A DNA stretch of 64,000 bases from Azonexus sp. R2A61. GTDB lineage: Bacteria; Pseudomonadota; Gammaproteobacteria; Burkholderiales; Rhodocyclaceae. Below are positions 3,169 through 64,000 of this stretch, in pieces; the first letter of the stretch is position 1, and each line of letters opens with the position of its first letter. Location: the NCBI RefSeq assembly GCF_021401135.1, contig NZ_JACBFO010000001.1, positions 744,001 to 808,000 on the forward strand, read 5' to 3'. The translations under genes were made by a program, and so were the position numbers. A model generated the notes under the pieces. That model was not told where the DNA came from, made no database searches, and was given only the letters and a program-made list of their open reading frames with translations.

Positions 3169-4689
3169 ATGCGCGCCATGCAACAGGCGCTGCTCTTCTC
3201 GGTCTTCATCATCGCGTCCTGCGGGCTGGCCTACGAACTGGTCGCCGCGGCACTGTCGTCCTATCTGCTGGGCGATTCGGTGATGCAGTTCTCGACGGTG
3301 ATCGGCACCTATCTGTTCGCCATGGGCGTCGGCTCCTGGTTGTCGAAATACGTGACCCGCGACCTGATCGGCACCTTCATCCGGATCGAACTGCTGGTCG
3401 GCGTGATCGGCGGGTTTTCGGCGCTGGCGATGTTTGCCGCCTTCGTCTGGCTGCCCAGTCCGTTCCGGCTGCTGCTCTATGTTGCGGTGTTCGGGGTCGG
3501 CGTGCTGGTCGGCCTGGAGATTCCGCTGGTGATGCGCATCCTGAAGCGCGATCTGGCCTTTCGCGATCTGGTGTCGCAAGTGCTCACTTTCGATTATCTC
3601 GGCGCACTGGCAGTGTCTTTGCTGTTTCCGCTGCTGCTGGCGCCCTATCTCGGCATGATGCGTACCGGCTTGCTGTTCGGCTTGCTCAACGTTGCGGTCG
3701 CTTTCTGGGCCTTGCGCCTGTTCGCCGACCAGTTGCCGGCCCGTCGCGGCCTGTGGGTGCAGGGCGGGGTGGCCGGCGTGCTGCTGGCCGCGGGTTTTGC
3801 CGGTGCCGGGCAGTTGACCGCGCTGGCCGAGGCGCATGTCTATGCCGACGATATCGTCTATGCCCGTTCATCGCCGTACCAGCGCATCGTGGTCACCCGC
3901 TGGCGCGACGACCTGCGCCTGTTCCTCAACGGCAATCTGCAGTTCTCGTCGCACGACGAATACCGTTACCACGAGGCGTTGGTTCATCCCGGTCTGGCCG
4001 CCTTGCCGGCGGCGCGGCGGGTGCTGGTGCTGGGCGGCGGTGACGGACTGGCGCTGCGCGAAATCCTGAAATATCCGCAGGTCGAGAAGGTGACGCTGGT
4101 CGACCTCGATCCGGCGATGACCGAACTGTTCTCGACGGCGCCGGCGCTGGTCGAACTGAATGGCGGCGCCTTGAGTTCGCCGCGTGCCGAGGTGATCAAC
4201 GCCGACGCGCTGGTCTGGCTGGAATCCGGCCAGGGCTCGGCGGCCGACTTTTACGATTTCATCGTTGTCGATTTCCCCGATCCGAACAATTTTGCACTGG
4301 GCAAGCTGTATTCGTCGGCCTTCTACCGGTTGCTCGAAAAGCGGCTGGCCGCCAACGGGCTGATCGTCGTCCAGTCGACCTCGCCGTTCTATGCCCGCCA
4401 GTCCTTCTGGTGCGTGGTGACGACGCTCGAGGATGTCGGTCTGCAGACGGCGCCCTACCACACGCTGGTGCCGTCCTTCGGCGACTGGGGATTCATCCTG
4501 GCGGGGCGGAGAAATTATGCGTTTCCTGCGGTCGACCGCAGCAAAACCCGATTTTTGACCAGCGAGGCGCTGCCCGGCATGTTCGATTTCCCGGCCGACA
4601 TCGCGCGGCTGCCGGTCGACGTCAACCGCCTGAACAACCAGGCGCTGGTCCGTTATTTCGAGGCCGAGTGGGCGCGGGTCAACCGTTGA
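3169..4689 (+). CDS. Membrane-anchored spermidine synthase-like protein
   Basis: The first ~220 residues form about seven hydrophobic helices. The last ~280 are a polyamine aminopropyltransferase fold with the dcSAM-binding VLVLGGGDGLALREI glycine loop, VTLVDLDPAM, and the acidic YDFIVVDFPDPNN segment. Soluble SpeE transfers aminopropyl groups to putrescine; what this membrane-fused form uses is unknown. ATG 3169 is preceded by a GGGG-type site; ATG 3178 is an in-frame alternative. A copy of the GCGGTCGACCGC palindrome is read as AVDRSK near the C terminus (codons around 4528-4545). The gene is divergent from ribBA and its last 11 nt overlap the convergent GGDEF/EAL gene. Confidence 0.85.
   Translation: MRAMQQALLFSVFIIASCGLAYELVAAALSSYLLGDSVMQFSTVIGTYLFAMGVGSWLSKYVTRDLIGTFIRIELLVGVIGGFSALAMFAAFVWLPSPFRLLLYVAVFGVGVLVGLEIPLVMRILKRDLAFRDLVSQVLTFDYLGALAVSLLFPLLLAPYLGMMRTGLLFGLLNVAVAFWALRLFADQLPARRGLWVQGGVAGVLLAAGFAGAGQLTALAEAHVYADDIVYARSSPYQRIVVTRWRDDLRLFLNGNLQFSSHDEYRYHEALVHPGLAALPAARRVLVLGGGDGLALREILKYPQVEKVTLVDLDPAMTELFSTAPALVELNGGALSSPRAEVINADALVWLESGQGSAADFYDFIVVDFPDPNNFALGKLYSSAFYRLLEKRLAANGLIVVQSTSPFYARQSFWCVVTTLEDVGLQTAPYHTLVPSFGDWGFILAGRRNYAFPAVDRSKTRFLTSEALPGMFDFPADIARLPVDVNRLNNQALVRYFEAEWARVNR
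4527..4540. repeat. Dispersed palindrome, full 14-bp copy
   Basis: Perfect palindrome TGCGGTCGACCGCA inside the spermidine synthase-like gene, encoding part of an AVDRSKT peptide. It is followed by a short A-rich tract and a T tract, as at the copy in prmC. Confidence 0.85.
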
Positions 4690-6427
4690 GACGGGTCGGC
4701 CGGTAGCTGCGCAGGTATTCGACGATCCGGTCGGCCGGCAGCGGTTTGCTGTACAGGAAACCCTGCAGCGTGTCGCAGCCGAGACGGGCGAGAAAGTCGC
4801 GCTGGGTCGACGTTTCGACGCCTTCGGCAACCAGTTCGAGGCCGAGATTGTGGCCGAGGGCGACGGTCGCCGAGCAGATGGCGGCGTCGTTCTGGTCGGT
4901 TTCGATGTCCTGGACGAAGGAGCGGTCCAGCTTCAGGCGCTGGATCGGCAGATGCTTCAGGTAGGCGAGCGACGAATAGCCGGTACCGAAGTCGTCGATC
5001 GCCAGCACGATGCCCATGTCCGACAACTGGTTGAGGATGGACAGGGTCAGCTCGGGATTCTGCATCGCCGTGCTTTCGGTGATTTCCAGCTCGATGTCCT
5101 GCGGCGTCAGTTCGTAGCAGGCCAGCGCGCCGCGCACCACCGACGGCAGGTTCTCGTGGCGCAACTGCTGTGCCGAGATGTTCACCGCAACGCGGAAACC
5201 GTGCAGGCCGCAATCGCGGAAATGCCTGACGTTGCGGCAGGTTTCCCAGAACACCCAGTCGCCCAGCGGCTGGATCAGACCGGTTTCCTCGGCCACCGGA
5301 ATGAAGCGGCCGGGCGGGACCTCGCCCAGTTGCGGGTGACGCCAGCGGGCCAGCGCTTCCAGGCCGACGATCTGGCCGTCGCTGAGCCGCACCTGCGGCT
5401 GGAAGTGCAGCGTGAACGGGCTGTGTGTCGGGGTGATCGACGATAGCGCCTCGCGCAGCGCGTTTTCCAGTTCGAGACGGGCGGCAGCGGCGGCGTTCAT
5501 GTGCTTGGCGTAGAACTGGTAGTTGTTACGGCCGGCGCTCTTGGCGTGGTACATCGCCGTATCGGCGTTGCGCAGCAGCGTCTCTCCGTCGCGTCCGTCG
5601 CCCGGGTAAATGGCGATGCCGATGCTCGGCGTCGCATACAGCGTGTGCGGACCGACCCGGTGGCTGCTGTCGGAGAGGCTGCGCTGCACCTTGCCGGCGA
5701 TCGAGGCGATGGTCATCGCGCAGTCGATGTCGGGCAGCACGACGACGAATTCGTCGCCACCCAGCCGGGCAACGATGTCGCTGGCCCGCACGCAGTCGCG
5801 CAGCCGGTTGGCGACGCTTTTCAGCAGTTCGTCGCCGACATGGTGGCCGAGCGTGTCGTTGACCATCTTGAAATGGTCGAGGTCGATCAACATCAGTGCC
5901 ACCTGCTTGTGGTCCCGTTCGCAGGCGCGGATCGACAGCTCGATCTGCGATTCGAAGGACAGCCGGTTGGGCAGGTGGGTCAGCGGGTCGTGGTAGGCCA
6001 GATGCAGCAACTGGTTGCTGGCCTCGATCCGTTCGCCGATGTCGGCGAAGGTGGCGACGTAGTTGGCGATCCGGTTCTCGTTGTCGCGTACTGCCGATAC
6101 GGTCAGCCAGATCGGGTAGAGATTGCCGTCCTTGCGCCGGTCCCAGATTTCGCCGGACCACGCGCCGTCCTCGTTGATCGCCCGCCACATCTCGGCGTAG
6201 AACGCCGGTTCGTTGCGCCCCGACGAGAACATGCGCGGATTGCGCCCGATCACTTCTTCGGCCGAATAACCGGAAAGCTGGCTGAATGCGGCGTTGACCG
6301 CAATGATGCGGTTGTCGCGGTCGGTGACCAGGATCGCTTCGCTGCATTGCACGAAGATCCGGCGCAACACTGCCTCGCCCAATGCTCCGATGGGCGTTTG
6401 TACGGGTGAGGCAGTGGATGTCGTCAT
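4679..6427 (-). CDS. PAS-GGDEF-EAL cyclic-di-GMP signalling protein
   Basis: 582 residues. A PAS domain (about 25-140, with VTDRDNRIIAVNAAFSQLSGY) is followed by a diguanylate cyclase domain with intact GGDEF and an upstream RASD inhibitory site five residues before it. An EAL phosphodiesterase domain then carries EALARWRHP and DDFGTGYSSLAYLK. No transmembrane segment is visible, so it is probably cytosolic. Both catalytic motifs are intact, so net activity cannot be predicted. ATG 6427 was chosen because the frame upstream crosses into island DNA. There is no clear Shine-Dalgarno site. The start sits 10 nt beyond the relic ychF stop codon (TGA at 6440-6438), which suggests ancestral translational coupling to ychF that the island has broken. 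Confidence 0.9.
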   Translation of the reverse strand: MTTSTASPVQTPIGALGEAVLRRIFVQCSEAILVTDRDNRIIAVNAAFSQLSGYSAEEVIGRNPRMFSSGRNEPAFYAEMWRAINEDGAWSGEIWDRRKDGNLYPIWLTVSAVRDNENRIANYVATFADIGERIEASNQLLHLAYHDPLTHLPNRLSFESQIELSIRACERDHKQVALMLIDLDHFKMVNDTLGHHVGDELLKSVANRLRDCVRASDIVARLGGDEFVVVLPDIDCAMTIASIAGKVQRSLSDSSHRVGPHTLYATPSIGIAIYPGDGRDGETLLRNADTAMYHAKSAGRNNYQFYAKHMNAAAAARLELENALREALSSITPTHSPFTLHFQPQVRLSDGQIVGLEALARWRHPQLGEVPPGRFIPVAEETGLIQPLGDWVFWETCRNVRHFRDCGLHGFRVAVNISAQQLRHENLPSVVRGALACYELTPQDIELEITESTAMQNPELTLSILNQLSDMGIVLAIDDFGTGYSSLAYLKHLPIQRLKLDRSFVQDIETDQNDAAICSATVALGHNLGLELVAEGVETSTQRDFLARLGCDTLQGFLYSKPLPADRIVEYLRSYRPTRLNG

Positions 6428-6455: not shown

Positions 6456-6545
6456 ATGCGGGCTGGAAGGCTTGATTTCACTGGTCATGGCGTCGGGGGC
6501 TCTCATAAAGTGCCCCCAAAGGTGCCACCAATTTAATCGGATAGG

Positions 6546-6557
6546 GGCGAACACCTG
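6546..6557. repeat. Possible integrase arm site, left copy
   Basis: GGCGAACACCTG occurs here, about 90 bp inside the left end, and again at 17681-17692 inside the right end in the same orientation. Tyrosine integrases bind such repeated arm sites near their attachment cores. The assignment is inference from position. Confidence 0.4.
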
Positions 6558-6589
6558 CGTACAGTGGGGGCCGATTTGTCTCTAAATCA

Positions 6590-6616
6590 GGGCTGAGAAG
6601 CGAATCCCCTCAGCCC
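6590..6616 (-). terminator. Hairpin after the PD-(D/E)XK gene
   Basis: 8-bp stem GGGCTGAG/CTCAGCCC with an 11-nt loop just beyond the stop codon of the 6624-7586 gene. No clear U-tract follows on the minus strand, so it is a weak terminator candidate. Confidence 0.4.
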
Positions 6617-6623
6617 CGTCATT

Positions 6624-7586
6624 TTACCCAAAGATGGCTTGTTCCACCTTTCCGAAATCCAAGTAACGGCCATGTAGGGCATCGGCAGCCTCAGCATCTC
6701 CAATGGCACGAAAGGCGGCGATGCAGTCTTCCAGCGTGACGACTTGGAAACCCGACACTTGAGGATCGGTAGAGGCCAAGTGTTCCCGATAGGCATTCAC
6801 GCCCGCCCGGCATTGACGGTTCTGCTCTGGATGGATCACGACAAAGCGCCCGGTTGAGTACAGGCCATTGTGAATCATGGCCCGGCTAAGCATGTGTTCC
6901 CGCCACAACTGCTGCACTGGATTTCCCCGCAGGGCAGGAGCCTCCGGGTCTTTGTAGATTCCAGCCAGTCGGGAAAGCTCATCGTAGCGAGGGCGTAGCC
7001 CAGCCAACGGTTCGGCCATCGTCTCCGAATACTTCATCTCGATAGCGATAAAGCCAGTTTCACCATCCGGGGTGATGCAGACGACGAACACGTCAAAGGC
7101 GCTATTGTCATCCGTGAAGGCAGGATCACCGCGGCTCGGCGAATGCTCGAAGTAAATTCCCTTCACTGCTGCAACATAGTCGGGGAACATGTGGCGGAAA
7201 AACAGATTAGCCTTCTCCGCGTCCAGCTTCATCCAGCCAAACAGGTTGAAACACAGCGGCTGACTGGAGAGCATGTTGCTCCAGAGGCGTTCCTGCTCGA
7301 TGACAGCTCCAATTTCGCGATAGACCGACTCGCGAAGAGCCAGCTTGGCAATATCGGGAGTGAGGAAGTTGCCGCCCTGCTTGGCGCTCTCGGCATCAAT
7401 ACGGCTGCCCAGCTTGCGCCGCTTTCCCTTGGGAGAGCGATGAGTACCAATCGGCAAGCCTCTCTCGTCACGCCATAGCGATTGCAGGAAACGTGCTGCG
7501 GCCTTGAATCGAGTGTCGCCGGGTTCATTGACCCGATGTGCTTTTAGGATGGCAGCCGGGACAAGGGGGATTCGGTTGAACTGCAT
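6624..7586 (-). CDS. Putative PD-(D/E)XK nuclease-family protein
   Basis: 320 residues, function unknown. D165 lies on one hydrophobic strand (AFDVFVVCI) and E183-M184-K185 on the next (FIAIEMKYSE). This D...ExK spacing is that of a PD-(D/E)XK catalytic core, and the layout resembles PGN_0703-like restriction-endonuclease-fold proteins. ATG 7586 has a good AAGGAG site 7 nt upstream. It lies downstream of the XRE regulator on the same strand. No DNA methyltransferase is present, so it is not an obvious type II restriction enzyme. A nuclease role in element maintenance or defence is inference. Confidence 0.6.
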   Translation of the reverse strand: MQFNRIPLVPAAILKAHRVNEPGDTRFKAAARFLQSLWRDERGLPIGTHRSPKGKRRKLGSRIDAESAKQGGNFLTPDIAKLALRESVYREIGAVIEQERLWSNMLSSQPLCFNLFGWMKLDAEKANLFFRHMFPDYVAAVKGIYFEHSPSRGDPAFTDDNSAFDVFVVCITPDGETGFIAIEMKYSETMAEPLAGLRPRYDELSRLAGIYKDPEAPALRGNPVQQLWREHMLSRAMIHNGLYSTGRFVVIHPEQNRQCRAGVNAYREHLASTDPQVSGFQVVTLEDCIAAFRAIGDAEAADALHGRYLDFGKVEQAIFG

Positions 7587-7658
7587 GTGTGGCTCCTTGC
7601 GTAGTGAAGGCCAACGGTAGCCTTCTCAGCAATGGATTCAGTGAGCCACAGAATTTCT

Positions 7659-8039
7659 TTATGGCTTGCCCTTCACTGTGGCAAGTCGAACATGCCGCAT
7701 GTGGTCGCACAGTGCCTTGACTTGATCGATGACGAATTCGCCGTCTTCGGGTGGCAGGCTCTCCAGCCATGCCGAAATGCGGATGGCCTGATCGGTCGGA
7801 GACGCGGATGCCTCAGACAACAAATCTGCAACGCTGGTTTTCAATACGCCAGCCAGCCTGTCGAGTGTGACCAAGGCTGGCACTGTCACACCACGCTCAA
7901 ACCGGGAAACGGTTTCAGCATCCACTCCGAGTCGTTCGGCCAACTGATCTTGCGTCCAGCTAAGCGCCTTCCGCCGCTCGGCTATTCTCTGTCCGAGTCG
8001 CTTCCCGAGTTGCTGCCGCATAGCCCCTGTTTCGCCCAT
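7659..8039 (-). CDS. XRE-family helix-turn-helix regulator
   Basis: About 126 residues. A Cro/CI-type helix-turn-helix occupies the N-terminal half (RIAERRKALSWTQDQLAERL, then AETVSRFERGVTVPALVTLDRLA). A short C-terminal tail of unknown function follows. The start could be ATG 8039 (AAGG about 10 nt upstream) or the internal ATG of MRQQLGK. It is transcribed divergently from the 8155 gene, with the shared promoter region between, and upstream of the 6624-7586 nuclease-like gene. It probably represses one or both. Confidence 0.8.
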   Translation of the reverse strand: MGETGAMRQQLGKRLGQRIAERRKALSWTQDQLAERLGVDAETVSRFERGVTVPALVTLDRLAGVLKTSVADLLSEASASPTDQAIRISAWLESLPPEDGEFVIDQVKALCDHMRHVRLATVKGKP

Positions 8040-8154
8040 ATCTGTTGCCTTAAAAAACAACTCGTATGGTTGAGATGCCGACCGGCAATCAGAAGGGTGT
8101 GATATGTTGCCTATCTACATATTGATACGATTATTGGCTTCAAAGGAGTGGCGT

Positions 8155-8964
8155 GTGGGCAAGTCAGCTAGCAACCCGAAGTGGGTGGAGTACATTCAGA
8201 GCCGGATTGAAAGAGCCAAACAATGGCGAGAGGAATTGCCCACCCACGAACAACTGGCCGAGAACTATCGGTATGTACGAATTCTCGGTAAGAGCTTCCG
8301 CGCCATATCAATTAGTCCAACCAACCCCTGCGGGCGGTTACTCAGGAAGGACAACGGCAGCGAGGTATCAGGCTGTGCAACGATAAAAGGCGCCATACTG
8401 AGCGCACAAGGGGCTCACCCCTATGACCACTCTGCGGACTTCAAGCCTGCCCGACATAAAACAGCAAAAGCTGACACGCCAGCAAAGCCAGAACACAAAA
8501 TCCAAGCGTTTCTGATCCGTCATGCCCTGATGAATGGGCAAAAGCTCCATGGCATTCTGACGGGATTTGATGGCGACTTAGACGATCTGATATTCGTGAC
8601 CGATGAGCTTTCCACGGGTGAGTTACGTGCAGACATCATTGCACTGGGCGGGAAAAATGGACGATATTTCCCCGTTTTTATCGAGTTGAAGGTCAAGCGC
8701 GAGTTGAAGCGCCTGATGGGGCAGCTTGAAGGTGCGCAGGCCCTTATGAATATCGCGGGGCAAGATTTCATAAAAATGCTCTCGGCAGCTTCGGGTATTC
8801 CCAATGAAAAAATTTCTTTCGATGGCTACCGGCTCATGATCGTGTGGCCCCCTGTTTCAGGGGGCAAGGAGGCAAATCGAGTAGAGGATGCGCGCTCGAA
8901 AGGATTTCTGTTTGCCGAATATGGCCAGCAGGGCGATGCTAAATACGAGTTCAAACGTAACTGA
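8155..8964 (+). CDS. Uncharacterised protein with PD-(D/E)XK-like C-terminal region
   Basis: 269 residues from GTG 8155, chosen because AAGGAG lies at 8143-8148 with 6-nt spacing; an ATG at 8104 is in frame but has no such site. Residues 113-190 carry E113 in EHKIQAFLIRH, D160 in LRADIIAL, E177-x-K179 in FPVFIELKVKRE and Q190. This is the order of motifs in PD-(D/E)XK endonuclease folds. The N-terminal third is a charged region of unknown role. It is divergent from the XRE gene, and its last 14 nt overlap the convergent ardC-like gene. The substrate is unknown. Confidence 0.55.
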   Translation: MGKSASNPKWVEYIQSRIERAKQWREELPTHEQLAENYRYVRILGKSFRAISISPTNPCGRLLRKDNGSEVSGCATIKGAILSAQGAHPYDHSADFKPARHKTAKADTPAKPEHKIQAFLIRHALMNGQKLHGILTGFDGDLDDLIFVTDELSTGELRADIIALGGKNGRYFPVFIELKVKRELKRLMGQLEGAQALMNIAGQDFIKMLSAASGIPNEKISFDGYRLMIVWPPVSGGKEANRVEDARSKGFLFAEYGQQGDAKYEFKRN

Positions 8965-9850
8965 TCGGTGCAGGATTCAGTAACTGCAAGTATGCAACTG
9001 CCTGATTTGCTTTGGCGGCGGCGGTGAATATTGCTTGTTTGTCACCTTTCAGAATCCTGAGCCACGATTCGATGTAACGAGCATGGTCAATACGTGGCTC
9101 AGGAGAAATACCGAGTTCCGCGCACAGAAACGCTGAACCAAGTTCGGCAATCAGTTCCTCTGCAGCATAGGCCTCACTTCCGAATCGGTTGCGAAGGTCA
9201 CGGTCACAACGGCTGGCGTGACCCGACCAATGCACCAGTTCATGCAGTGCTACGCTGTAATAGCTCTGTGCATCCTTGAATGCACCATCGGGCGGCAAGT
9301 GGATTTCATCCTTACTGGGGATGTAGCAGGCCTGACGGCTATCGTGATAAAAGCTTGCCTTGCTGGCTTTGATGAAAATTTCGGCGGCTGCATGTCGTTC
9401 GATGGGGCCCAGTTCTGGAGCGGGTGAAGGAGTGAATCCATCCACCTGTGCCGCGTTGAACACATAGGCAGCTTTTGCGATGAAATGCCGACGTGGTTCC
9501 TGTTCGTCGCTCCCTGTCGATTGCTGGCCTGCCTCAATAGTCTTGAAGAACACGGTCAGCGTGCCTTTTTCTCCCTTGCGGACTTGCGCACCGATAGCTT
9601 GCCATTGTCGGAACGTTGCCCATTCAGCCGTGACATAGGTACTGTGTTGCTGGCTGGCCCATAGCGCCAAAACGTTGATGCCATGATAGGCATAGCGGCC
9701 GACTGGATTGTGCGGGAGGCCGATGGCTGGCCCGGTGCAGAGTTTCGGATTCCAGGGCATTTGATAGTCGCCAGCACCGGCCTCGATGGCTGCGATGATC
9801 TGATTGGTGATGCGCTGGTGAAGGTCTTCCCTCGGCGTATCCTGCCGCAT
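8951..9850 (-). CDS. ardC: ArdC-type antirestriction protein with zincin domain
   Basis: 299 residues. The N-terminal ssDNA-binding region is recognisable from ITNQIIAAIEAGAGDYQMPW, the GRYAYHGINVLALW segment and RQWQAIGAQVRKGEKGT. The C-terminal half is a zincin-like metallopeptidase domain with HELVHWSGH (HExxH) and a downstream AAEELIAELGSAF glutamate helix. ArdC proteins, carried by plasmids and integrative elements, protect incoming DNA from host restriction. The ATG at 9850 has GGGGA about 7 nt upstream; a TTG at 9865 is the alternative. A lone antirestriction gene fits an element that moves between hosts. Confidence 0.85.
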   Translation of the reverse strand: MRQDTPREDLHQRITNQIIAAIEAGAGDYQMPWNPKLCTGPAIGLPHNPVGRYAYHGINVLALWASQQHSTYVTAEWATFRQWQAIGAQVRKGEKGTLTVFFKTIEAGQQSTGSDEQEPRRHFIAKAAYVFNAAQVDGFTPSPAPELGPIERHAAAEIFIKASKASFYHDSRQACYIPSKDEIHLPPDGAFKDAQSYYSVALHELVHWSGHASRCDRDLRNRFGSEAYAAEELIAELGSAFLCAELGISPEPRIDHARYIESWLRILKGDKQAIFTAAAKANQAVAYLQLLNPAPISYV

Positions 9851-9920
9851 GTCTGAAATCCCCAATGGCTACGTGACACGGGGAATTCAATGCTAAGAGC
9901 CAAGAGTTTATCCTTTTGAA

Positions 9921-11111
9921 ATGATTCCTTGCCCTTTCGTCATCGGGCAACAACCAGCCAACTGTGGTCGCGCGTCTCTTCCAGAAAGTGGCTATCTAAA
10001 TGGCAGCTGCACACAGAAACCTCCTGAGGCAGAAGGCAGGGGTGCTGAGATAGAATGCAGCTGTCCTAACTTTTTGCCGGTAAATTCTGTGCAGCTGCGC
10101 CACCAAATATTCGCGCTTAACGTTACCGGCGAGATCGTATCGGTCGCGGACGTTTCACGCGGACTGGCCTGTGGCTGCTCCTGCTATGTGTGCGGTAGCC
10201 GGCTTGTAGCATGTCAAGGCACTGTACGCGAGTGGTACTTCGCGCACGAAGCAAAATCGAATTGCACTGGCGGACTTGAAACATTGCTGCACAAGGCGGC
10301 GAAACAGGTGCTGTTATTAGCACGCGACGTAATGCTGCCGGAGGTTACGGTGTCGAGCGTTTTCAGGCTGCCGGATGGTCGGCACGGTGGTGCCACCGCT
10401 AGACGTGAGGCTTGGTTACAGCACTACGAAGACCCAAGACCTGAGGTGGATTTTGGCAGTGTGCAACCAGACGTAGTGATCGAGACGGATTTAGGGCCGA
10501 TCTGGATTGAGATCGTGGTTACGAATCCAGTGAGTAGCGACAAACTCGTGAAACTGAAGGCGCTCGGCGTACCGGTGCTTGAACTGAAGCTGGGGTTGCC
10601 GCACTTTGCCGGGCAAAGCGCTTGGGGTCTGCTGCGTCAGGCGGTGTTATACGAGAAAACCACGCGAAAATGGCTCATCGAGCCGCGTATTCCAGAACTC
10701 GAAGCAGAAGCGGAGCGACTTTCCAAGGAAGAGGCAGAGCGACGAAAGTTGCCATTTCCCCCTGATCTGACCGCGGAGCATGAACGGTGTCCAGCGAATC
10801 CGGAACCAGCTCCGCCGTCCAAAAACAACTACCACTGTGGCCGAACGGTGGTGATTTTGCGCCAACTGAAATTTGGGGTTTCAGTAGCTGCGCAGACCTC
10901 TGATTTCGCGCTGGACCCTTATGTTACGCGTCAGTTGGCCCTCTGGGGCGGTCGGTACAGCGAAAAGCACAAAAACTGGATATTCCCGGCAGATAAAGAG
11001 GCAAGGTTGCGGGACGCACTAACTAGACTTGAAAAGAAGATTGCGCAGCAGTCTGCACAGGAAATACATAAGCGGGTGCTAGATGCATACTACGCGGAGC
11101 AGGCGGACTAA
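9921..11111 (+). CDS. CoiA-like protein (zinc-ribbon plus nuclease-like domain)
   Basis: Up to 396 residues. Near the N terminus CGCSCYVCGSRLVACQG followed by REWYFAHEAKSNC resembles the cysteine motif and FAH signature of CoiA-like proteins. A strand pair QPDVVIETD / PIWIEIVVTNPV follows, the CoiA form of a PD-(D/E)XK core with the usual lysine replaced. A charged coiled region rich in E/R and a C-terminal region (DPYVTRQLALWGGRYSEKHK) complete it. CoiA is a competence protein acting on transforming DNA; its role on an island is unknown. The start is uncertain: ATG 9921 gives a poorly conserved leader, and a GTG near 10092 just before QLRHQIFAL is a good alternative. Confidence 0.65.
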   Translation: MIPCPFVIGQQPANCGRASLPESGYLNGSCTQKPPEAEGRGAEIECSCPNFLPVNSVQLRHQIFALNVTGEIVSVADVSRGLACGCSCYVCGSRLVACQGTVREWYFAHEAKSNCTGGLETLLHKAAKQVLLLARDVMLPEVTVSSVFRLPDGRHGGATARREAWLQHYEDPRPEVDFGSVQPDVVIETDLGPIWIEIVVTNPVSSDKLVKLKALGVPVLELKLGLPHFAGQSAWGLLRQAVLYEKTTRKWLIEPRIPELEAEAERLSKEEAERRKLPFPPDLTAEHERCPANPEPAPPSKNNYHCGRTVVILRQLKFGVSVAAQTSDFALDPYVTRQLALWGGRYSEKHKNWIFPADKEARLRDALTRLEKKIAQQSAQEIHKRVLDAYYAEQAD

Positions 11112-11216
11112 GGTGCGGCAGTATTGGTTGCACCGCGTTGGCCGATGAATACTTAGCTGTAGAAGTCGCGACCTGATCTGACAGTTCCCCTCCGAACCAT
11201 GCCATTGCTTTCGACC

Positions 11217-11720
11217 TCAAGGCTTTATCAGCTTGCAAACGTAGCTATGCAGCCGGTCGCTCCATGCAGAGCGATAGCGTTGCAGAATCTCTTTGCCGAC
11301 GAAATAAAGCTCGGTCGGTTCTAGTTCGGTGACAGTCGAATTGCCGTCGAAATACGTCTCCTCGCTTTCCAGCACCTCGGCATTCTCATGTCCCTTGACC
11401 TGTTCAAGATGCCAATAATCATCAAGCCAGATCAGCGAGGCAGTGGCAACGCGATTGCCTGACAGGTCTTGGATCGAGAACACCCGCGCCAGCCCCCTAT
11501 GGCAAAGATCATCGTAGTGACCGGCGCAGTGCTTCATAGCTCGCCCCTCGGCCCTCAGTTGCTTTGAGGTGGTCAGCGGGATAATAAGGTATTCGCCGAT
11601 TTCGCACTCCGGCAAATCAGATGCCCATTCGAGATTCCGCTTCTTTTTGCGCTTGGCGCCCAGTCCGAACAGGGAATTCAGAAAATCTGGATGTGCCCGG
11701 TTTTCTTTTGCGTCGGCCAT
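11217..11720 (-). CDS. PcfJ-like protein
   Basis: 167 residues. The central AMKHCAGHYDDLCHRG followed by ARVFSIQDLSGNRVATASL matches the core of PcfJ-like proteins, found on conjugative and integrative elements and of unknown biochemical function. The N terminus is basic (KRKKKR). ATG 11720 lies only 2 nt beyond the stop of the MBL nuclease gene, with GGAGG 7 nt upstream, so the two are cotranscribed and probably translationally coupled. The pairing suggests a joint role, though neither sequence says what that is. Confidence 0.65.
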   Translation of the reverse strand: MADAKENRAHPDFLNSLFGLGAKRKKKRNLEWASDLPECEIGEYLIIPLTTSKQLRAEGRAMKHCAGHYDDLCHRGLARVFSIQDLSGNRVATASLIWLDDYWHLEQVKGHENAEVLESEETYFDGNSTVTELEPTELYFVGKEILQRYRSAWSDRLHSYVCKLIKP

Positions 11721-11722
11721 CT

Positions 11723-12952
11723 TCATACCTCCCACCATTCGCCGTCTTGGCGATAAACCACGTTGCTGAACAGTTCGCTGTATTTGTCCGTGGCGAAGCT
11801 GTGGATCGGGATCAATGCGCGGGGAGCCAATGCCTCGGCAAAGCGTTTTAAGTCCTTAGGGCTGGCGTGTCCGGAGGTGTGGATGTGGCGCATCTCGATG
11901 CCCAAGGTTTTCAGCCATGCTTCCGTCGAGGCATAGGTGCCCTGTTCAAGATAGCCCGCCCATTGGGAATAGATGTAACTGGCCTGATCCAGACAGCCGG
12001 CGTCGTCGAGGTCGGGGCGCATCAAGGGGCGGAACAGGATGACGGCGTTACGGCCAATCTCCTTCAGTTGCTCCTGATAGATGCGGTTTGCCGAGTGCTG
12101 CTTGAGCAGCGGGAACCACTCATTTTTCTTGACCTGAATGGCTTGCAGCTTCGGCAGGTAAAGGTGAATGCCCGGCCAGTCGGACTGCGGAATGTTCTTG
12201 TTTTCGGTGGCGGCGAGGATCGCTGCGGCATAAAGGTCGATGATGAGCGGGCGGCCAGTACGCTTGCAGGCTCGATAGAGGGTGACAACGCGGTCGATGT
12301 TCTGCGTTGACGTGTGGAACATCACCATGCCTTTGGTGGCCTTGAGGTGGGCGACGATTTCGGCCTCAAGATCGATTTCGGTCGGAAACGATTCATCCGA
12401 TTCCAGGCGCGACAGGGAGGAGCCTTCCATGAAGAGGGCGTCAATGTCCTTCGGCGGGTTCGCCACCAGATGCTCGTACAGCTTCGCCTTGCGGCCGTGT
12501 GCGCGGAAATCACCGCTGTAAAAAATGCGCTTGCCCTCGGCCTCGATCAGGAACGAATAGGCATCGTAGGCTGAGTGATCGACCAGATACGGGGTGATGC
12601 GGAATGCACCGATTTCGATGGTCTTGCCATGCTCCAGATCAGGGCCATTGAGCAATGGCAACGGTTGTCCGGTGAAGGGGGCGGCAGCTTGCACAATCCG
12701 ACGTGCGGCAGCGCCCATGACGACGGGCGTATTTCCTGACAGGTGGTGCAGCAGCCCGTAGTGGTCGATATGGGGATGAGAGATTACGATACCCCGCAGG
12801 TCGTCACCGGCGATTTCCGGCACCAGATTCGTATCGGTTGCATCGCCATCCAGTGGCAAGCCGAAATCCAGAGCGATGCGGTCGCCGGCTGCGGCCAACT
12901 CGATACAGGTTCCGCCAATTTGTTGCGTGCCACGGTGAATGCGAACTTTCAT
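11723..12952 (-). CDS. MBL-fold/beta-CASP metallo-hydrolase, RNase J/CPSF-like
   Basis: 409 residues. The metallo-beta-lactamase motif SHPHIDH supplies H59, H61, D63 and H64; H125 (VDHSAYDAY) and D147 (FYSGDFRAHGR) complete the dinuclear zinc site. An inserted beta-CASP-like region (HTSTQNIDRVVTLYRACKRT) and the terminal HTSGHAS and IPIHS motifs match RNase J/CPSF-73-type nucleases acting on RNA or DNA. The ATG at 12952 has AAGGAG at ideal spacing. It is transcribed divergently from the WYL regulator, whose start is 107 bp away, and is followed within 2 nt by the PcfJ-like gene. This is the likely effector of the cassette; the substrate is unknown. Confidence 0.85.
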   Translation of the reverse strand: MKVRIHRGTQQIGGTCIELAAAGDRIALDFGLPLDGDATDTNLVPEIAGDDLRGIVISHPHIDHYGLLHHLSGNTPVVMGAAARRIVQAAAPFTGQPLPLLNGPDLEHGKTIEIGAFRITPYLVDHSAYDAYSFLIEAEGKRIFYSGDFRAHGRKAKLYEHLVANPPKDIDALFMEGSSLSRLESDESFPTEIDLEAEIVAHLKATKGMVMFHTSTQNIDRVVTLYRACKRTGRPLIIDLYAAAILAATENKNIPQSDWPGIHLYLPKLQAIQVKKNEWFPLLKQHSANRIYQEQLKEIGRNAVILFRPLMRPDLDDAGCLDQASYIYSQWAGYLEQGTYASTEAWLKTLGIEMRHIHTSGHASPKDLKRFAEALAPRALIPIHSFATDKYSELFSNVVYRQDGEWWEV

Positions 12953-13059
12953 ACTGAACTCCTTGCGGGCTGGTTGATGTTGCCATTGTTGAACGGCCAA
13001 GCGACACTCTGCGTCGTTTGCGGAATGCATCATGGTATTCAAACAGTCAGGAGAGAACT

Positions 13060-14004
13060 TTGGACGCTTTGCTACGGCACTGGGCGATGCTGCGCCTGAT
13101 TCCCCGCCATCCACGGCGAATTGACACCGGCAGGATTCGTGATGAACTGGAGCGGCAGGGTTACGACATTACCTTGCGGTCGATTCAGCGTGATCTCAAT
13201 AAGCTTTCGGCAGTGCTGCCGTTGTGCAGTGACCAAAGCAAGCCGCAAGGCTGGTGGTGGCAGGCCGATGCCGATTTGTTGGAGATTCCCGGCCTCGATC
13301 CGCAAGCCGCCTTGGTCTTCAAGATGGCTGAGCAGCATTTGAAACAAGTGCTACCGGCTTCAACACTGGATTCTCTGCGTCCGTGGTTCCGGGCGGCGAA
13401 TGGCGTACTGGATGCACTGCCGGATGGCGTTGGCGACTGGAACAATAAAGTTCGCATCCTGCCCAGCGGCCCGCCATTGATCCCTCCGAGCATCAATGCG
13501 GATGTGCAGTCGGCCATTTACCAAGGGCTGTTTGAGAATCGGCGCTTGGCACTGAATTACAAGCCAAGGGGGGCGGCCAATGCCAAGTCCTACGAGATAA
13601 ATCCGATGGCAGTGGTTCAACGTGGGCATTCGATTTACATCGTCTGCACCAGCGGGGATGACAGTAATCCCAAGTCGTTCCTGATGCATCGCATCGAATC
13701 GGCCATGGTGCTTGATGACCCGGCTAGCTGCCCAGCGGGGTTCGATGTGGATGCCTACATTGCCGAGGGGGAGCTTGGTTATCGGCTGGGGCCTCCGATA
13801 AAGCTGGTTGCTGACTTCGATGCTAAGGCAGCATTAGTCCTTCACGAGACGCCTATTGCGACTGACCAAATTATCAGAGGGGAATCGGCGGGGAAGGTGC
13901 AACTCACGGCAACTGTTGCCGACACAAGAGAACTGCGAGCTTGGTTACGGGGTTTTGGCAGTGCTGTCCAAGTGCTCAGCCCAGTAGGATTCCTTGAAGA
14001 TTAA
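13060..14004 (+). CDS. WYL-domain transcriptional regulator
   Basis: 314 residues. The N terminus is a winged helix (PRRIDTGRIRDELERQGYD / LRSIQRDLNKLS). A WYL-type domain follows (ALNYKPRGAA ... YEINPMAVVQRGHSIYIVC) and then a C-terminal WCX-like segment. WYL regulators sense nucleic acid or nucleotide ligands and are common controllers of defence loci. The TTG start at 13060 was preferred because AGGAG lies at 13049-13053 with 6-nt spacing; a TTG at 13018 has no such site. It is divergent from the MBL nuclease and probably represses that promoter. Confidence 0.85.
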   Translation: MDALLRHWAMLRLIPRHPRRIDTGRIRDELERQGYDITLRSIQRDLNKLSAVLPLCSDQSKPQGWWWQADADLLEIPGLDPQAALVFKMAEQHLKQVLPASTLDSLRPWFRAANGVLDALPDGVGDWNNKVRILPSGPPLIPPSINADVQSAIYQGLFENRRLALNYKPRGAANAKSYEINPMAVVQRGHSIYIVCTSGDDSNPKSFLMHRIESAMVLDDPASCPAGFDVDAYIAEGELGYRLGPPIKLVADFDAKAALVLHETPIATDQIIRGESAGKVQLTATVADTRELRAWLRGFGSAVQVLSPVGFLED

Positions 14005-14106
14005 AGACCCATTCGGATCACTTCAGGAGCCGGAAATAAAAATTCCGTAGAGTCCTACCCCCTGTTTTTCTTATATGTAGCTCCTACAACCAACTTGGAG
14101 TACAAC

Positions 14107-15132
14107 ATGAGTAACGGCAATTTCGAACTCAACCAGAACGGTCATTGTAACGCACGTTTCCTGATTGAACGAGGAGATTGCGGCTATCGCCCCGGCGAAA
14201 AATTTCCGATCGTTTGGGGGCACTCTGATGACGCGCAAATTCTTAGGGCTGTTATCGGCAGGAACGAAGATGAGTATGAGAAAAGCCTGGAATATGAAGA
14301 TGCACGGCGGCGTTTCTCAACAGCTGTAGCACTTGGGTACGGCAAAAAAGTAGTGGCGGGGCCAAAACGTTGGAAGGCGGCTCGTGAGCATCAGCGTTGG
14401 CATCGAACGTTGAAAATTACGTTCAACGATCCTTTCGCGTTGCCACGGCACATAAAGGGCCATGAATTTGTGCGGCTCTACAATGCGGTAGCCTTCGCCA
14501 ACTCAAAAAATGCCATTCTGAACGTCCATCTGACAATTAGCTGGAAGCTGTTGGGGTATGGCAATGACGAGGCTGCTGACTTGCCTCTCAGCAAGCTTTT
14601 CATCAAGAACTATACCCAGTGGTGCTCTGACAACGACATCGACTGCATATGGATTTACTCGAACGAGTTTAGCGGGGTGGCCGGCTTGCATACGCATTTG
14701 ATGACTTCGGTTAGTGAGGAAATGCAGGATGCCTTTAGGGAGTTTGTCGAAAAGCGACTTCAAGAGATAAACAGACTGCAGAGCTTAAACGAGGCTGCCT
14801 GCGATATTTCAATTCCCAAGAGCAGGCAAGTTGCTCGGCAGTGGATTCGATTCCAGTACCTGTGCAAAGGGGTTGATCCGAATGCCAGGCTGAAACACGC
14901 CAACGGCATTGACAGCATGTTTGTCTCCGATCTGATTCGATTTGGGTACGAGAATCCGGGGAGCGTTGGCTGTAGGCGGCGCTGCGGGGTGTCTCGAAAC
15001 CTTGATAAATCAGCGCGAAAGGAAGCGGGCTTCGTATCAACGCTGGAGAAGGGGTATCTCAATGTGAGTCTTCTTTATCCTGATGACGAAAAAGCCGATG
15101 TGCCGTTTGACTTGACGTTGCTTAATTTGTAA
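14107..15132 (+). CDS. Putative rolling-circle (HUH-type) replication protein
   Basis: 341 residues, not recognised with certainty. H195-T196-H197 sits in a hydrophobic strand (VAGLHTHLMTSV), the position and form of an HUH metal-binding motif. Y251 with K254 (FQYLCKGVD) follows about 55 residues later, where rolling-circle Rep proteins carry the nicking tyrosine. The remaining sequence is polar and unassigned. ATG 14107 has TTGGAG at 14095-14100 with 6-nt spacing. A hairpin terminator follows the stop. A Rep would allow the excised element to replicate. The alternative is an uncharacterised element protein. Confidence 0.45.
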   Translation: MSNGNFELNQNGHCNARFLIERGDCGYRPGEKFPIVWGHSDDAQILRAVIGRNEDEYEKSLEYEDARRRFSTAVALGYGKKVVAGPKRWKAAREHQRWHRTLKITFNDPFALPRHIKGHEFVRLYNAVAFANSKNAILNVHLTISWKLLGYGNDEAADLPLSKLFIKNYTQWCSDNDIDCIWIYSNEFSGVAGLHTHLMTSVSEEMQDAFREFVEKRLQEINRLQSLNEAACDISIPKSRQVARQWIRFQYLCKGVDPNARLKHANGIDSMFVSDLIRFGYENPGSVGCRRRCGVSRNLDKSARKEAGFVSTLEKGYLNVSLLYPDDEKADVPFDLTLLNL

Positions 15133-15139
15133 GCGGGTG

Positions 15140-15172
15140 AAGGCCGTCAGGGATGGCGGCCTTGGCCTTTTT
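15140..15172 (+). terminator. Terminator after the Rep-like gene
   Basis: Hairpin with stem AAGGCCG/CGGCCTT (15140-15146, 15157-15163) followed by GGCCTTTTT, 7 nt after the stop codon. Confidence 0.55.
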
Positions 15173-15323
15173 GGGTCAGTATCTTCAAACGGCAGGAATC
15201 ATTGGTGCTTGATGAAAATTAGCATCTATTATTCATGTAGATAGCTCAGCCAATAAGGTGCCGAAGTTGACTATAAGGAGCGCCATCTCGGCGGTGGCGA
15301 TAAACGCCTCCGCAGACGCGCGC

Positions 15324-15799: not shown

Positions 15800-15840
15800 A
15801 TCCAGAGAGTTGGCGTTACCGGGAAACTCATCAGGGGAAA

Positions 15841-27433: not shown

Positions 27434-30025
<2,592 letters not shown>

Positions 30026-42562: not shown

Positions 42563-42585
42563 GGAATTCCCGCTTTTTCTCCGCT

Positions 42586-52374: not shown

Positions 52375-54485
52375 TCAGAAGGCGTAGCTGGCCGATACGC
52401 CGGCCATGTAGTTGCGCCCGGGGGCGGGGCGAAATAGCGCTCGTTGGCATCGTTGACCGAAACCCCGCCGACGTAGCGCTTGTCGGCCAGGTTTTCGATC
52501 CGGACGAATTCCTTGAAACGCCACGATCCGGTTTTCTGTTCGAAGCCGGCGCGCCAGTTGACGACGGCGTAGCTGTCGGCCGCATCGCTGTTCAGGTCGT
52601 TGACGTAGACCTTGCCGCTGTAGCGGGCTTCCAGCGCCGTCGTGAAGCCGATCGACGGTGCCTGCCACGAGAGTTCGCCGTAGCCGCTGATGCGCGGGGC
52701 GCCGGGCAGCCGGTTGCCCTGGTTGACGGTGCCGGCACCGTTGCCGGACAGGAAGGCGTCCTCGAAACGGGCATCGAGCAGCGCGTAGGCCAGGTAGAGG
52801 TTCAGGTTGCCGGGCAACTGGCTGTCGAAGGACAGCTCGACGCCCTGGCGTCGCGTCCGGCCGGCATTGCGGTAGGTGTTGCGGCCGCCGAGGCTGACGC
52901 CGGTGACGATTTCGTCGTCCGTGCGGATGTCGAAGACGGCGAGGTTCAGGCGGCTGCTGTCGCCGATCACCGCCTTGATGCCGGCTTCGGCATTGCGCGA
53001 GGTGCTGGGCTGCAGTGCGAAATTGAGGCCGGAACCGACCGGGCGATAGGCCAGTTCGATGAAGGTCGGCGTTTCGAAGCCCTTGCCGTAGTTGGCGTAG
53101 AGATTGACCGTCGGGGTCAGCCGGTAGAGCACGCCGAATACCGGGCTGGTGTTGCTGTAGTTGATGCTGCCGCTGTCGTCCGGGTTGCCGCCGTTGATGT
53201 AGCGGTCGTTGGCGGCGAAATGCAGGCTGCTGTGGCGCAGGCCGCCGGTCAGCACCCAGTGCTCGCCGGCCAGCCATTCGGCCTGCAGGTACTGGCTGGT
53301 GCTGCGCACGATGTTGTCTTCGTCGCGGCGCAGGTCGCCCTGCTCGCCGTTGTTGTTGACGTAGCCCTTGCGCACGTCCTTCATGTATTGGTATTCGATG
53401 CCGCCGGTCAGGGTCAGCAGGCCGGCGGCGGTCGGCAATTTGTGCGTCCAGCGCGCGTCGACCCCGCTGAAGTTGCGGTCGACGACGCTGATCCCGCCGG
53501 AACTGGTCGGGCCGGCGCCGGTGATGCCCAGCCGGCCGAAGACTTCGCGCTGGCCGGCATGGGCGACGATGGCGAAGCTGTTGCGCCCGTCGACGCGGTG
53601 TTCCAGGTTGAGGCCGGCGTGGGTCTGGCGCTTGCTGCCGCCGGTGTTGAAGGTCGATGCGCTGGCGGCCGCCTGGCGGGGATCGGCGGCCATCTGGGCG
53701 CGGGTCAGACCTTGCGGATCTTCGTTGTAAGGCTGGTCGAGCGCATTCAGGATCAGGGTCAGCTTGGTGTCGTCGTCGGGCCGGTAGCTGAACTTGCCGT
53801 TGAACTGGTCGCGCCGCGCTGCACTGTGCTCGCGGTAACCGTCGGTTTCGTAGCGGGTGAGATCGACCAGGTAATTGAATTTGCCTTGCTGGCCGCCAAG
53901 CTGCAGGCCGCTGCGCCAGGTGTTGAAGCTGCCGGCGTAGTAGTTCGCCGTGACCGTCGGCCGGGCCGGGCCGTCCTGCGTGAACAGCTGGATCACGCCG
54001 CCGGACGAGTTGCCGTACAGCGTGGAGAACGGCCCGCGCATGACTTCCAGCCGCTCCGCCGAACCGAGGCTGAAACTGCCGCTCTGGCCTTGGCCGTCCG
54101 GCATCGATAACGGGATGCCGTCGGCGTAGACGCGGATGCCGCGGATGCCGAAGGCCGAGCGGGCGCCGAAGCCGCGCGACGAGACCTGCTGGTCGGACGA
54201 CAGGCGGTACTGGTTCGGCGCGACGATGCCGGGAATCCGCGACAGCGATTCCGAGGCGTTGACCTGAAACTGCCCTTCGCGCAGTTGCTCGCCGCTGACG
54301 ACGTCGATCGAGACCGGGACATCGAAGCTCGACTGCTCGATGCGCGTTGCCGTCATGACCACCGGCGCCAGCGTCAGCGCCGCCTCGTCGGCGGCCCAGG
54401 CGCCGGCCGGGAACAGCCCGGCGATCAGCCAGGCAATCGGGGAAAGGGCGGGGCGGGCGGTGGGTCGGTGCTGTGCTGCGTTCAT
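52375..54485 (-). CDS. TonB-dependent outer-membrane receptor, frameshifted near the C terminus
   Basis: About 703 residues if the frame is restored. Signal peptide, then a plug domain (VVMTATRIEQSSFDVPVSID, LSRIPGIV, QQVSSRGFGARSAFGIRGIR, MRGPFSTLYGNSSGGVI) and a 22-strand barrel. The long frame leaves the family pattern at DANERYFAP (around 52425) and would end at 52242 inside the DUF1800 gene. The -1/+2 frame instead continues PGRNYMAGVSASYAF and stops at 52375, with the C-terminal Phe needed by outer-membrane barrels. One base seems missing in the C-rich tract around 52416-52430, either a real mutation or a sequencing error. The ligand is unknown; the Mo-storage genes are divergent from it. 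Confidence 0.85.
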
Positions 54486-56402: not shown

Positions 56403-56420
56403 ACCGGAGGCGGCATTATT

Positions 56421-56444
56421 GCGGTCGACCGCGTGTCGACCGCA
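56421..56444. repeat. Dispersed palindrome pair at the mosA terminator
   Basis: GCGGTCGACCGC (56421-56432) followed by half-copy GTCGACCGCA (56435-56444), directly abutting the terminator A tract. Confidence 0.85.
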
Positions 56445-56446
56445 AA

Positions 56447-56470
56447 AAAGCCCGGCGCAAGCCGGGCTTT
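56447..56470. terminator. Bidirectional terminator between mosA and the cytochrome gene
   Basis: 10-bp stem AAAGCCCGGC/GCCGGGCTTT with loop GCAA. A tract before and T tract after serve both convergent transcripts. Confidence 0.9.
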
Positions 56471-58211: not shown

Positions 58212-58402
58212 CGGACTACTCCGTTGTGCCGGCATGCCCGGTCGGCCTTGCGGTCGACGGTCGGGAAGCGGCTTTTTTTATCGGTTGGGGTCGGGGGCGA
58301 AAGTCGCCGGGGCATCAGGCCGCCGGGCCATGCACGTACCGGTGACTGTCGGTACAGTCTAGGAAAGCCGTTCGGCGGCGGCTATTCCCGCTTCGGGCTA
58401 AG

Positions 58403-58426
58403 GCGCTAATCGGTTTTGATTAGCGC
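58403..58426. promoter_or_regulatory. Inverted repeat upstream of tsdB-like gene
   Basis: 9-bp perfect arms GCGCTAATC/GATTAGCGC around GGTTTT, about 200 bp upstream of the cytochrome operon and 80 bp past the Pal-like gene. It may be an operator or a second terminator hairpin; no T tract follows. Confidence 0.35.
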
Positions 58427-58429
58427 GGG

Positions 58430-58442
58430 GCGGTCGACCGCA
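58430..58442. repeat. Dispersed palindrome beside the Pal-like gene terminator
   Basis: GCGGTCGACCGCA in the intergenic region, 18 bp from the terminator of the Pal-like gene. Confidence 0.85.
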
Positions 58443-63350: not shown

Positions 63351-64000
63351 CGCTGGGCGAGGCGCTGGCCGCCGCGCGCGGCCGCATCGACCGGCTCGAC
63401 GCCCGCTTGCTGCTGCAAACCGTCAGCGGCTGCACGCATGCGGATTTGCTGGCGCGGCCCGAAACGCCGCTGCTCGGGCCGGCCGCCGAGCAGTTTCTGG
63501 CCTGGGTCGACCGTCGTGCCGGCGGCGAACCGCTGGCCTATCTGGTCGGCGAGGCCGAGTTTCGCGGCCGGGTCTTCCAGGTATCGCCCGACGTGCTGAT
63601 TCCGCGGCCGGAAACCGAAATCCTGATCGATCTTGCGGTCGACCGCAGCAAAACGCTAAAAAATCCGCGACTGCTCGATCTCGGCACCGGTTCCGGCATC
63701 GTCGCCATTTCGCTGGCGCTGGAATGTCCGGCGGCCGAGCTTGTTGCGGTCGACCTGTCGCCGGCGGCAATTTCCGTCGCCCGCAACAATGCCGGGCGGC
63801 TGGGCGCGCGCGTCGGCTTCGTTGAGAGCGACTGGTTCTCGGCGCTGGCCGGGCAAAAATTCGACCTGATCGTTTCGAACCCGCCTTACGTCGCCGACGG
63901 CGATCCGCACCTGGCGCTGAACGGCCTGCCCTTCGAGCCGCAGATGGCGCTGACCGACGGCGAGCCGGGCGGCAACGGGCTGGCCTGCATCCGCCGTATC
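63347..64000 (+). CDS. prmC: Release factor glutamine methyltransferase, truncated by window end
   Basis: 218 codons are present; the 3' part is outside the window. PrmC methylates the GGQ glutamine of RF1 and RF2. An N-terminal helical domain precedes the SAM domain with [26 protein letters not shown] and the catalytic [12 protein letters not shown] palindrome copy is read as LAVDRSKT in the linker just before the SAM motif. Confidence 0.95.
63634..63647. repeat. Dispersed palindrome, full 14-bp copy
   Basis: TGCGGTCGACCGCA in prmC, followed by GCAAAA and an A tract exactly as in the copy at 4527. A degenerate copy, TGCGGTCGACC, lies about 110 bp downstream. Confidence 0.85.

Follow-up and report, generated by a model that had tools for sequence, protein, structure and literature searches.

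According to PMC12616744, only the Neisseriaceae and the Pasteurellaceae are known to use sequence tags for DNA uptake, the DNA uptake sequences (DUS) of the former and the uptake signal sequences (USS) of the latter. As described in PMC1626085, both occur at about one copy per kb with no orientation bias, prefer non-coding DNA with many copies in genes (65% of H. influenzae USS are coding), include some opposed pairs, are spread somewhat more evenly than random and have perfect copies that outnumber mismatched ones. The same account has USS arising by mutation, with two A/T-rich segments downstream and with cores that are specific to subclades. USS share the letters GCGG, and paired uptake motifs often act as terminators, as given in PMC12616744. 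The repeat described here was found in a stretch of 64,000 nucleotides (the window; positions 744,001 to 808,000 of contig NZ_JACBFO010000001.1) and in the genome to which it belongs (G000, 3.73 Mb, 13 contigs). Judging by its sequence features, it is quite probably an uptake signal sequence, a tag by which "self" DNA is recognized in natural transformation. All results are computational, the counts rest on fixed patterns, and the genomes of the relatives are partly incomplete.

A preliminary description of the window had reported a 12-bp palindrome, GCGGTCGACCGC, at a frequency beyond that expected from composition. This was confirmed: nine exact copies are present, compared to a mean of 0.02 and a maximum of 1 in 100 dinucleotide shuffles. 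Under a third-order Markov model of the window, 0.27 copies would be expected on both strands, where 18 were counted. The palindrome extends to TGCGGTCGACCGCA in four places (8 when both strands are counted). Half sites were also found to be abundant, as that description had said, with 29 copies of TGCGGTCGAC in the window compared to 0.99 expected. The genome-wide count that it had proposed gave 234 palindromes, and the reversed 12-mer, used as a control, gave 12. However, the palindrome had been taken as the unit, and this was ruled out because half sites carry the identical A/T tract.

The actual unit is an asymmetric core with an A/T tract: TGCGGTC(G/A)AC, then 14-16 bp, then an A/T tract of 4-5 bp, with a weaker tract between. 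The palindrome consists of two such units, opposed, with GTCGAC in common and A/T tracts on both flanks. The first reading included neither the conserved tract, which lies roughly two turns of the helix away from the core, nor the status of each half as a unit in itself. Over-represented words were sought in a 464-kb sample of the genome, made up of the window and 20 stretches picked for palindrome content. The half site TGCGGTCGAC was the top 10-mer (206 compared to 9 expected), and the variant TGCGGTCAAC occurred 47 times compared to 3 expected. At the 125 non-palindromic GTCGACCGCA sites, the A/T share was 0.94, 0.98 and 0.97 at positions -19 to -17 (0.36 in the sample as a whole), with a weaker rise at -8, and at the 47 GTTGACCGCA sites it was 0.87-1.00 at the tract positions. 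The flanks beyond the A/T tracts showed no conservation in this sample. In the window, a tract, scored as three consecutive A/T at a fixed distance, accompanied 30 of the 32 copies of TGCGGTCRAC. The 266 cores in 514 kb of the genome had four-letter A/T runs starting at +24, +25 and +26 in 44, 72 and 44% of cases, and weaker starts at +14 to +16 in 9-14%, both compared to a background of 2%. There are, thus, two A/T peaks downstream of TGCGGTC, a weak one at +14 to +16 and a strong one at +24 to +26, which are 10-11 bp apart.

The consensus is strong, with 328 perfect copies of the core and tract compared to 93 with one mismatch in the core. For the 10-mer, 178 perfect and 131 single-mismatch copies were found with the tract, and 213 and 314 when the tract was not required. 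Those 131 compare to 0 to 5 single mismatches in five control words. Most of them affect the first letter (48) or the eighth (58, including 43 changes of G to A); only five are in letters 4-7.

Genome-wide, the pattern CGGTCRAC-N15-WWWW has 1,785 copies, 929 on one strand and 856 on the other (p 0.09), and the reversed pattern has 7. With TGCGGTCGAC-N16-WWW, there were 1,067 (556 and 511; 2 reversed), and with TGCGGTCAAC-N16-WWW, there were 322 (170 and 152; 0 reversed). Placement was examined in the 514-kb sample with rough gene calls, by which 81% was called coding, probably too little. Strand and replichore bias, which the preliminary description had suggested checking, were both absent: besides the balance of the genome-wide count, the strands in the sample carried 162 and 138 units, and blocks with negative GC skew did not differ consistently there from those with positive skew. 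In the suggested check of gene position, no bias with gene direction was found (97 units along, 100 against), and there was enrichment in non-coding DNA, with 97 of 300 units there (203 coding) compared to a non-coding share of 18.7% (p 2e-8 with the rough calls). The corresponding figures for TGCGGTCRAC were 179 coding and 87 non-coding of 266. Among coding 10-mers, 165 of 181 lie in three of the six reading frames and encode peptides that are mostly AVD, VDR or STA-like. Among 36 viral contigs with a strict unit, 35 had one and one had two, with no sign of enrichment.

The palindromic form differs with its surroundings. Of 59 palindromes sampled, 31 were called coding and 28 intergenic, 11 of the latter between convergent genes; at least one of the 28 was miscalled (window 21775, inside ispE). 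The inverted repeat extends by an average of 3.8 bp at convergent palindromes compared to 0.45 in coding DNA (p 0.001). One of them, at window positions 42543-42568, folds into a hairpin of 11 pairs with a run of T behind it. This hairpin belongs to the 26 terminator-like matches in 41-60 kb of the window, compared to 19 in shuffles.

The preliminary description had also proposed that the palindrome in ispE arose by substitution rather than insertion. This was upheld by a protein alignment with five homologues, which is gap-free at the VDR peptide encoded by the motif. The palindrome is absent from ispE in three relatives aligned by DNA. Alignments of orthologous sites are mostly of equal length, and several DNA alignments are gapped.

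The repeat is abundant only within a single genus. When the palindrome by itself was counted, its distribution was uneven, with at least 33 copies only in part of that genus (60 genomes; 395 family genomes). The core and tract were then counted in the 395 genomes of the family, including G000, of which 22 belong to the genus and 373 to other genera. In the genus, 18 had 553-1,785 copies, two had 98 and 105, and two had 40 and 19; the 373 others had 27 or fewer. In a survey of 399 genomes of the order, each of the 393 that do not belong to the genus had 37 copies or fewer. In a set of 17 chosen genus members, two of which were also in the family survey, nine had 532-1,639, G005 had 159, G452 had 88, and six had 13-41. 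The comparison with related genomes proposed in the preliminary description, therefore, showed the motif to be abundant in 18 of 22 genus members and scarce in the others, and its claim of a distribution across the core chromosome holds for G000 but not for several species of the same genus that are without the motif. The nearest named DNA by IspE (75-79% identity) comes from an uncultured betaproteobacterium, two Azonexus sp. metagenome-assembled genomes (MAGs) and a Rhodocyclaceae MAG. Units were present in Azonexus GS18 (4 in 17 kb), Azonexus GS9 (2 in 11 kb) and Rhodocyclaceae MAG mtb01 (2 in 17 kb), with 0 for the reversed control in each. None was found in the 3-kb betaproteobacterial piece or in a Pseudomonas locus. 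Because the nearest IspE DNA and the named loci with units are from Azonexus and Rhodocyclaceae, we infer that the genus is Azonexus. Among the open-access papers listed for uptake or transformation in Rhodocyclaceae, Azonexus, Dechloromonas or Betaproteobacteria, and among those listed as recent work on uptake sequences, none reports such a motif in this group in its title or abstract opening.

Within the genus, the letters that precede CGGTC vary as dialects. These were surveyed in 18 genomes, 20 to 533 kb each, with the inner core and the distance of the main tract fixed by the search pattern; in G000 and G002, both were also found without a fixed pattern. TG was commonest in G000 (309 units), G008, G030 and G015, CA in G031 and G011 (21), CG in G400 (20), AG, weakly, in G448 (15), and TA in G369 (4 of only 5 units). 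CCA was commonest in G002 (34), where it goes with two or three strong A/T tracts. Counted from the first letter of CGGTC, the G002 dialect, CCACGGTCAACCGG, has two strong tracts, one at +11 to +16 and one at +22 to +27, and another tract at +29 to +32; it is the fullest form of the motif seen (L030-L031, L047-L051). Dialects can be swapped in place. The unit at window position 63745 is TGCGGTCGAC in G000, G452, G008 and G400, and its orthologue is AGCGGTCGAC in G448 and TACGGTCGAC in G369; four other relatives have no unit there. A hidden dialect was sought in the motif-poor genomes G016, G018 and G035 (140 kb each) through enrichment of 10-mers and of 7-mers with an A/T tract, and none was found by these tests, which a quite different motif could escape.

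The history of the motif was examined with a DNA tree of one gene, HemA, from 30 genus members, in which 9 of 27 inner branches were well supported. The six motif-poor genomes do not form a clade on this tree (approximately unbiased test, p 2e-79), and if two weak genomes count as poor, the tree requires seven or more changes of state. Repeated loss or gain of the motif is likely from these data, although one gene is weak ground in a genus that may recombine.

The window has 44 units of core and A/T tract at 37 distinct sites. The features of the window are listed below, including the unit-free island; "none" marks features without a single strand.

4511 to 4556, none: palindrome 4528-4539, two opposed units (10-mers at 4527, plus, and 4531, minus), A/T tracts on both sides, in an open reading frame (ORF) with a spermidine synthase domain
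21758 to 21803, none: palindrome 21775-21786, two opposed units, inside ispE (minus strand)
36217 to 36262, none: palindrome 36234-36245, TG form on minus and CG form on plus, in a CitMHS transporter gene (minus strand)
36261 to 36290, plus: unit with palindrome 36262-36273, in the same CitMHS transporter gene
42533 to 42578, none: palindrome 42550-42561, two opposed units, between convergent genes, in the middle of the terminator-like hairpin 42543-42568
52275 to 52304, minus: unit with palindrome 52292-52303, at the overlap of DUF1800 and TonB-dependent receptor ORFs
56415 to 56449, none: palindrome 56421-56432 with a plus unit, and a minus unit at 56435, in the gap between two convergent genes, for an amino-acid kinase and a cytochrome c
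58413 to 58442, minus: unit with palindrome 58430-58441, intergenic by rough gene calls
63618 to 63663, none: palindrome 63635-63646, made of two opposed units, on the downstream side of prfA and probably inside the ORF that follows, which would run past the window edge
736 to 765, minus: single unit, TG form
2390 to 2419, plus: single unit, CA form
3793 to 3822, minus: single unit, CG form
6273 to 6302, minus: single unit, TG form, CAAC, three-A/T tract
18382 to 18411, plus: single unit, CA form
19297 to 19326, plus: single unit, GA form
22183 to 22212, minus: single unit, TG form
22579 to 22608, plus: single unit, TG form
22603 to 22632, minus: single unit, TG form
24938 to 24967, plus: single unit, TA form, with a unit also in three named relatives (L006, L007, L008)
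27362 to 27391, plus: single unit, CG form
28788 to 28817, minus: single unit, CA form
30005 to 30034, plus: single unit, TG form, CAAC
31342 to 31371, plus: single unit, TG form
33401 to 33430, minus: single unit, TG form
35012 to 35041, plus: single unit, TG form
37219 to 37248, minus: single unit, CA form
38342 to 38371, plus: single unit, TG form
38676 to 38705, plus: single unit, CA form
38755 to 38784, minus: single unit, TG form
42438 to 42467, minus: single unit, GT form, may be chance
42485 to 42514, minus: single unit, TG form, CAAC
43187 to 43216, minus: single unit, TG form
43980 to 44025, none: two opposed units, GA form on minus and TC form on plus
44876 to 44905, plus: single unit, TG form
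46005 to 46034, minus: single unit, CA form
52432 to 52461, minus: single unit, TT form, may be chance
58249 to 58278, plus: single unit, TG form
63745 to 63774, plus: single unit, TG form, with an orthologous unit in 5 of 9 aligned relatives
6500 to 17650 (approximate limits), none: unit-free island, with integrase, ArdC and PD-(D/E)XK nuclease genes

The absence of the motif from the island, at about 6.5-17.65 kb, had already been pointed out in the preliminary description, and it extends to the units: none of the 44 is there, compared to about nine expected (eight sites; Poisson 9e-5 by units and 4e-4 by distinct sites). The G+C content of the island is 0.549 compared to 0.657 in the rest of the window. 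Its genes include those for a phage-type integrase, an ArdC anti-restriction protein, a PDDEXK_13/REase-ARP nuclease, a WYL regulator, a metallo-beta-lactamase-fold protein and a PcfJ-like protein. PADLOC gave matches on the island for the WYL-domain protein only.

Other short sequences in the window also depart from expectation. GAATTC occurs 35 times compared to 18 expected, and its palindromic extension GGAATTCC occurs 5 times compared to 0.7. CGAATTCG is over-represented in the motif-poor G018 as well (60 compared to 24), and a GAATTC-type sequence is possibly a second abundant palindrome in the genus. CGATCG (34 compared to 103), TCGCGA (12 compared to 49) and GGATCC (2 compared to 17) are depleted, a pattern as under restriction avoidance. 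Finally, CACGTGAAAC, which we take to resemble parS sites, occurs five times in each of the samples of G030 (40 kb), G035 (140 kb) and G002 (140 kb).

Of the described systems, USS are among the closest. The repeat shares with them a core of about 10 bp, two downstream A/T-rich segments (10-11 bp apart here and 12 in USS), hundreds to thousands of copies, unbiased orientation, a mostly coding location with non-coding enrichment, opposed pairs, an excess of perfect over mismatched copies, an origin by substitution, and a core edge specific to subclades. The letters GCGGT are common to USS and to the TG and CG forms here. The USS and DUS traits given in PMC1626085 are all present except even spread, at about half the density. 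In contrast to USS, the host is a betaproteobacterial genus, the inner core is CGGTCRAC rather than GCGG, the core can be palindromic, and the spacing is not more even than random. Neither of the Pasteurellaceae cores, AAGTGCGGT (Hin) and ACAAGCGGT (Apl), is the core here, which is TGCGGTCRAC and its dialects. The repeat resembles DUS in its dialects around a fixed inner core in related species, in a ComP-family pilin in the genome, and in terminator-like pairs, inverted pairs of DUS being terminators as given in PMC12616744. DUS, as described there, have the core GCCGTCTGAA with an inner CTG and no flanking motifs, unlike the different core and A/T tracts seen here. As far as computation can say, then, the repeat works like USS, but it belongs to neither known family because core, host and tract distance differ. 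It seems likely that uptake signals arose a third time, independently and only in one betaproteobacterial genus, and reached by convergence the design of the Pasteurellaceae, namely a core with GCGGT and helically phased A/T tracts. This system would have dialects among close species, repeated loss or gain and, in some species, a palindromic core by which one site works both ways.

Chance or an artefact of composition can hardly explain the repeat, given that the reversed patterns had 2 copies compared to 1,067 and 7 compared to 1,785, and that the 373 genomes of other genera had 27 or fewer. A signal for recombination or segregation, such as Chi or the FtsK-orienting polar sequences (KOPS), or a motif linked to methylation or like the highly iterated palindrome 1 (HIP1) of cyanobacteria, would also have many copies spread over the core genome. 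The orientation of Chi and KOPS follows the direction of replication, but here the strands are balanced and nothing changes at the GC-skew flip. The preliminary description had likened the repeat to HIP1, which is, as generally known, an abundant palindrome in the core chromosome. This likeness was not supported: the palindrome here is two overlapping asymmetric units, half sites have a nearly invariant A/T tract at a fixed distance, and several species have mostly non-palindromic forms. To our knowledge, neither HIP1 nor ordinary type II methylation sites include such a spaced A/T tract. This group of explanations is, therefore, very improbable. Still more improbable is a mobile or self-copying repeat, such as a repetitive extragenic palindrome (REP), a miniature inverted-repeat transposable element (MITE) or an insertion, which would agree with the intergenic palindromes with extended stems. 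REP and MITE are inserted or copied elements found mainly outside genes, whereas two-thirds of the copies here are coding and 165 of 181 fall in three of six frames, the ispE protein alignment is gap-free, orthologous sites are mostly equal in length, and the flanks are unconserved outside the tracts. Chance, Chi or KOPS, and a mobile repeat were, thus, rejected on the reversed controls, the orientation balance and the mostly gap-free orthologous sites. The proposal in the preliminary description of an uptake-like repeat, born by substitution and not mobile, finds support in the balanced orientation, the share of copies in genes, the strength of the consensus, the dialects and the orthologous sites.

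The repeat could instead be the binding site of an abundant intracellular protein, either a nucleoid protein or an occlusion factor, that organizes, segregates or protects the chromosome, with the A/T tracts wrapped or bent. A core with helically phased A/T tracts would suit any DNA-bending protein, a symmetric form exists, and the sampled chromosome is covered while the island is free. However, two-thirds of the copies are in genes, no orientation or replichore pattern was seen in the sample, and near relatives alter the core edge or lack the motif, which is unexpected for a housekeeping factor. Also, 328 perfect compared to 93 single-mismatch copies is a ratio unusual for regulator sites, as these are described in PMC1626085. 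We, therefore, regard this explanation as unlikely.

As an uptake signal, the repeat would be recognized during natural transformation by a DNA receptor at the cell surface, which probably sits on the type IV pilus. The contact site would be the core CGGTC(G/A)AC with the two preceding dialect letters (TG in G000), and the A/T tracts, which follow it at distances of one and two turns of the helix, may help the duplex to bend or kink as it enters. If uptake and recombination favored tagged DNA, copies would build up by point substitution, in both orientations, wherever coding allows. Two opposed units with a common GTCGAC give the 12-bp palindrome, and this form may double as a transcription terminator where an intergenic hairpin is useful.

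The search for uptake machinery covered ComEC and pilins. In G000, the ComEC frame is open over 876 aa. The prepilin N-terminal motif occurs in 11 proteins of this genome, which include a FimT-like protein of the GspH family and a single pilin assigned to ComP_DUS, a Pfam family that is named for the Neisseria DUS receptor. Among the motif-poor genomes, ComEC is truncated in G018 (C8:1085724-1086371) and in two frames in G035 (C1:1959178-1959913). It is split or short in G002, G019 and G005, and no match was found in G021 (74% complete). Loss of ComEC was rejected as the cause of motif loss, since the defects do not track motif poverty cleanly. When 90 pilins of six genomes were grouped by similarity, no group was common to G000, G008 and G002 and at the same time missing from each of the poor G016, G018 and G035.

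Several observations count against an uptake signal. ComEC is interrupted in the motif-rich G008 (one stop, two contigs; C10 and C17) and is long and open in the poor G016, G022, G027 and G013, four of the six poor genomes. The ComP_DUS pilin is present in 29 of 30 genus genomes, including all six poor ones, and its sequences (28 aligned, compared by eye; G400 and G017 were not extracted, and the G024 row is another pilin) show no sorting by dialect. For these reasons, the ComP_DUS pilin alone does not identify the receptor, and its candidacy on the basis of presence was ruled out, there being no association with motif richness. Close relatives can be nearly without the motif, such as G452 with 88 copies beside G008 with 1,234. 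The density of about 0.5 per kb is half of the figure quoted for USS and DUS, and the tracts begin roughly 5-9 bp farther from GCGGT than those of USS. Unit spacing is also clumpier than random (coefficient of variation 1.13 compared to 0.96; 499 of 500 random sets were lower), in a sample biased toward stretches picked for palindromes.

If the repeat is indeed an uptake signal, a core with A/T tracts would be a repeatable solution, reached in a distant group, and this would suggest that the outer-membrane pore imposes the same physical demand in these bacteria. The receptor could be sought by coevolution across the genus, and these bacteria would have a ready tag for their transformation. With rich, poor and dialect-switched sisters in one genus, it could be compared how uptake signals arise, what drives them, how they change dialect and how they are lost.

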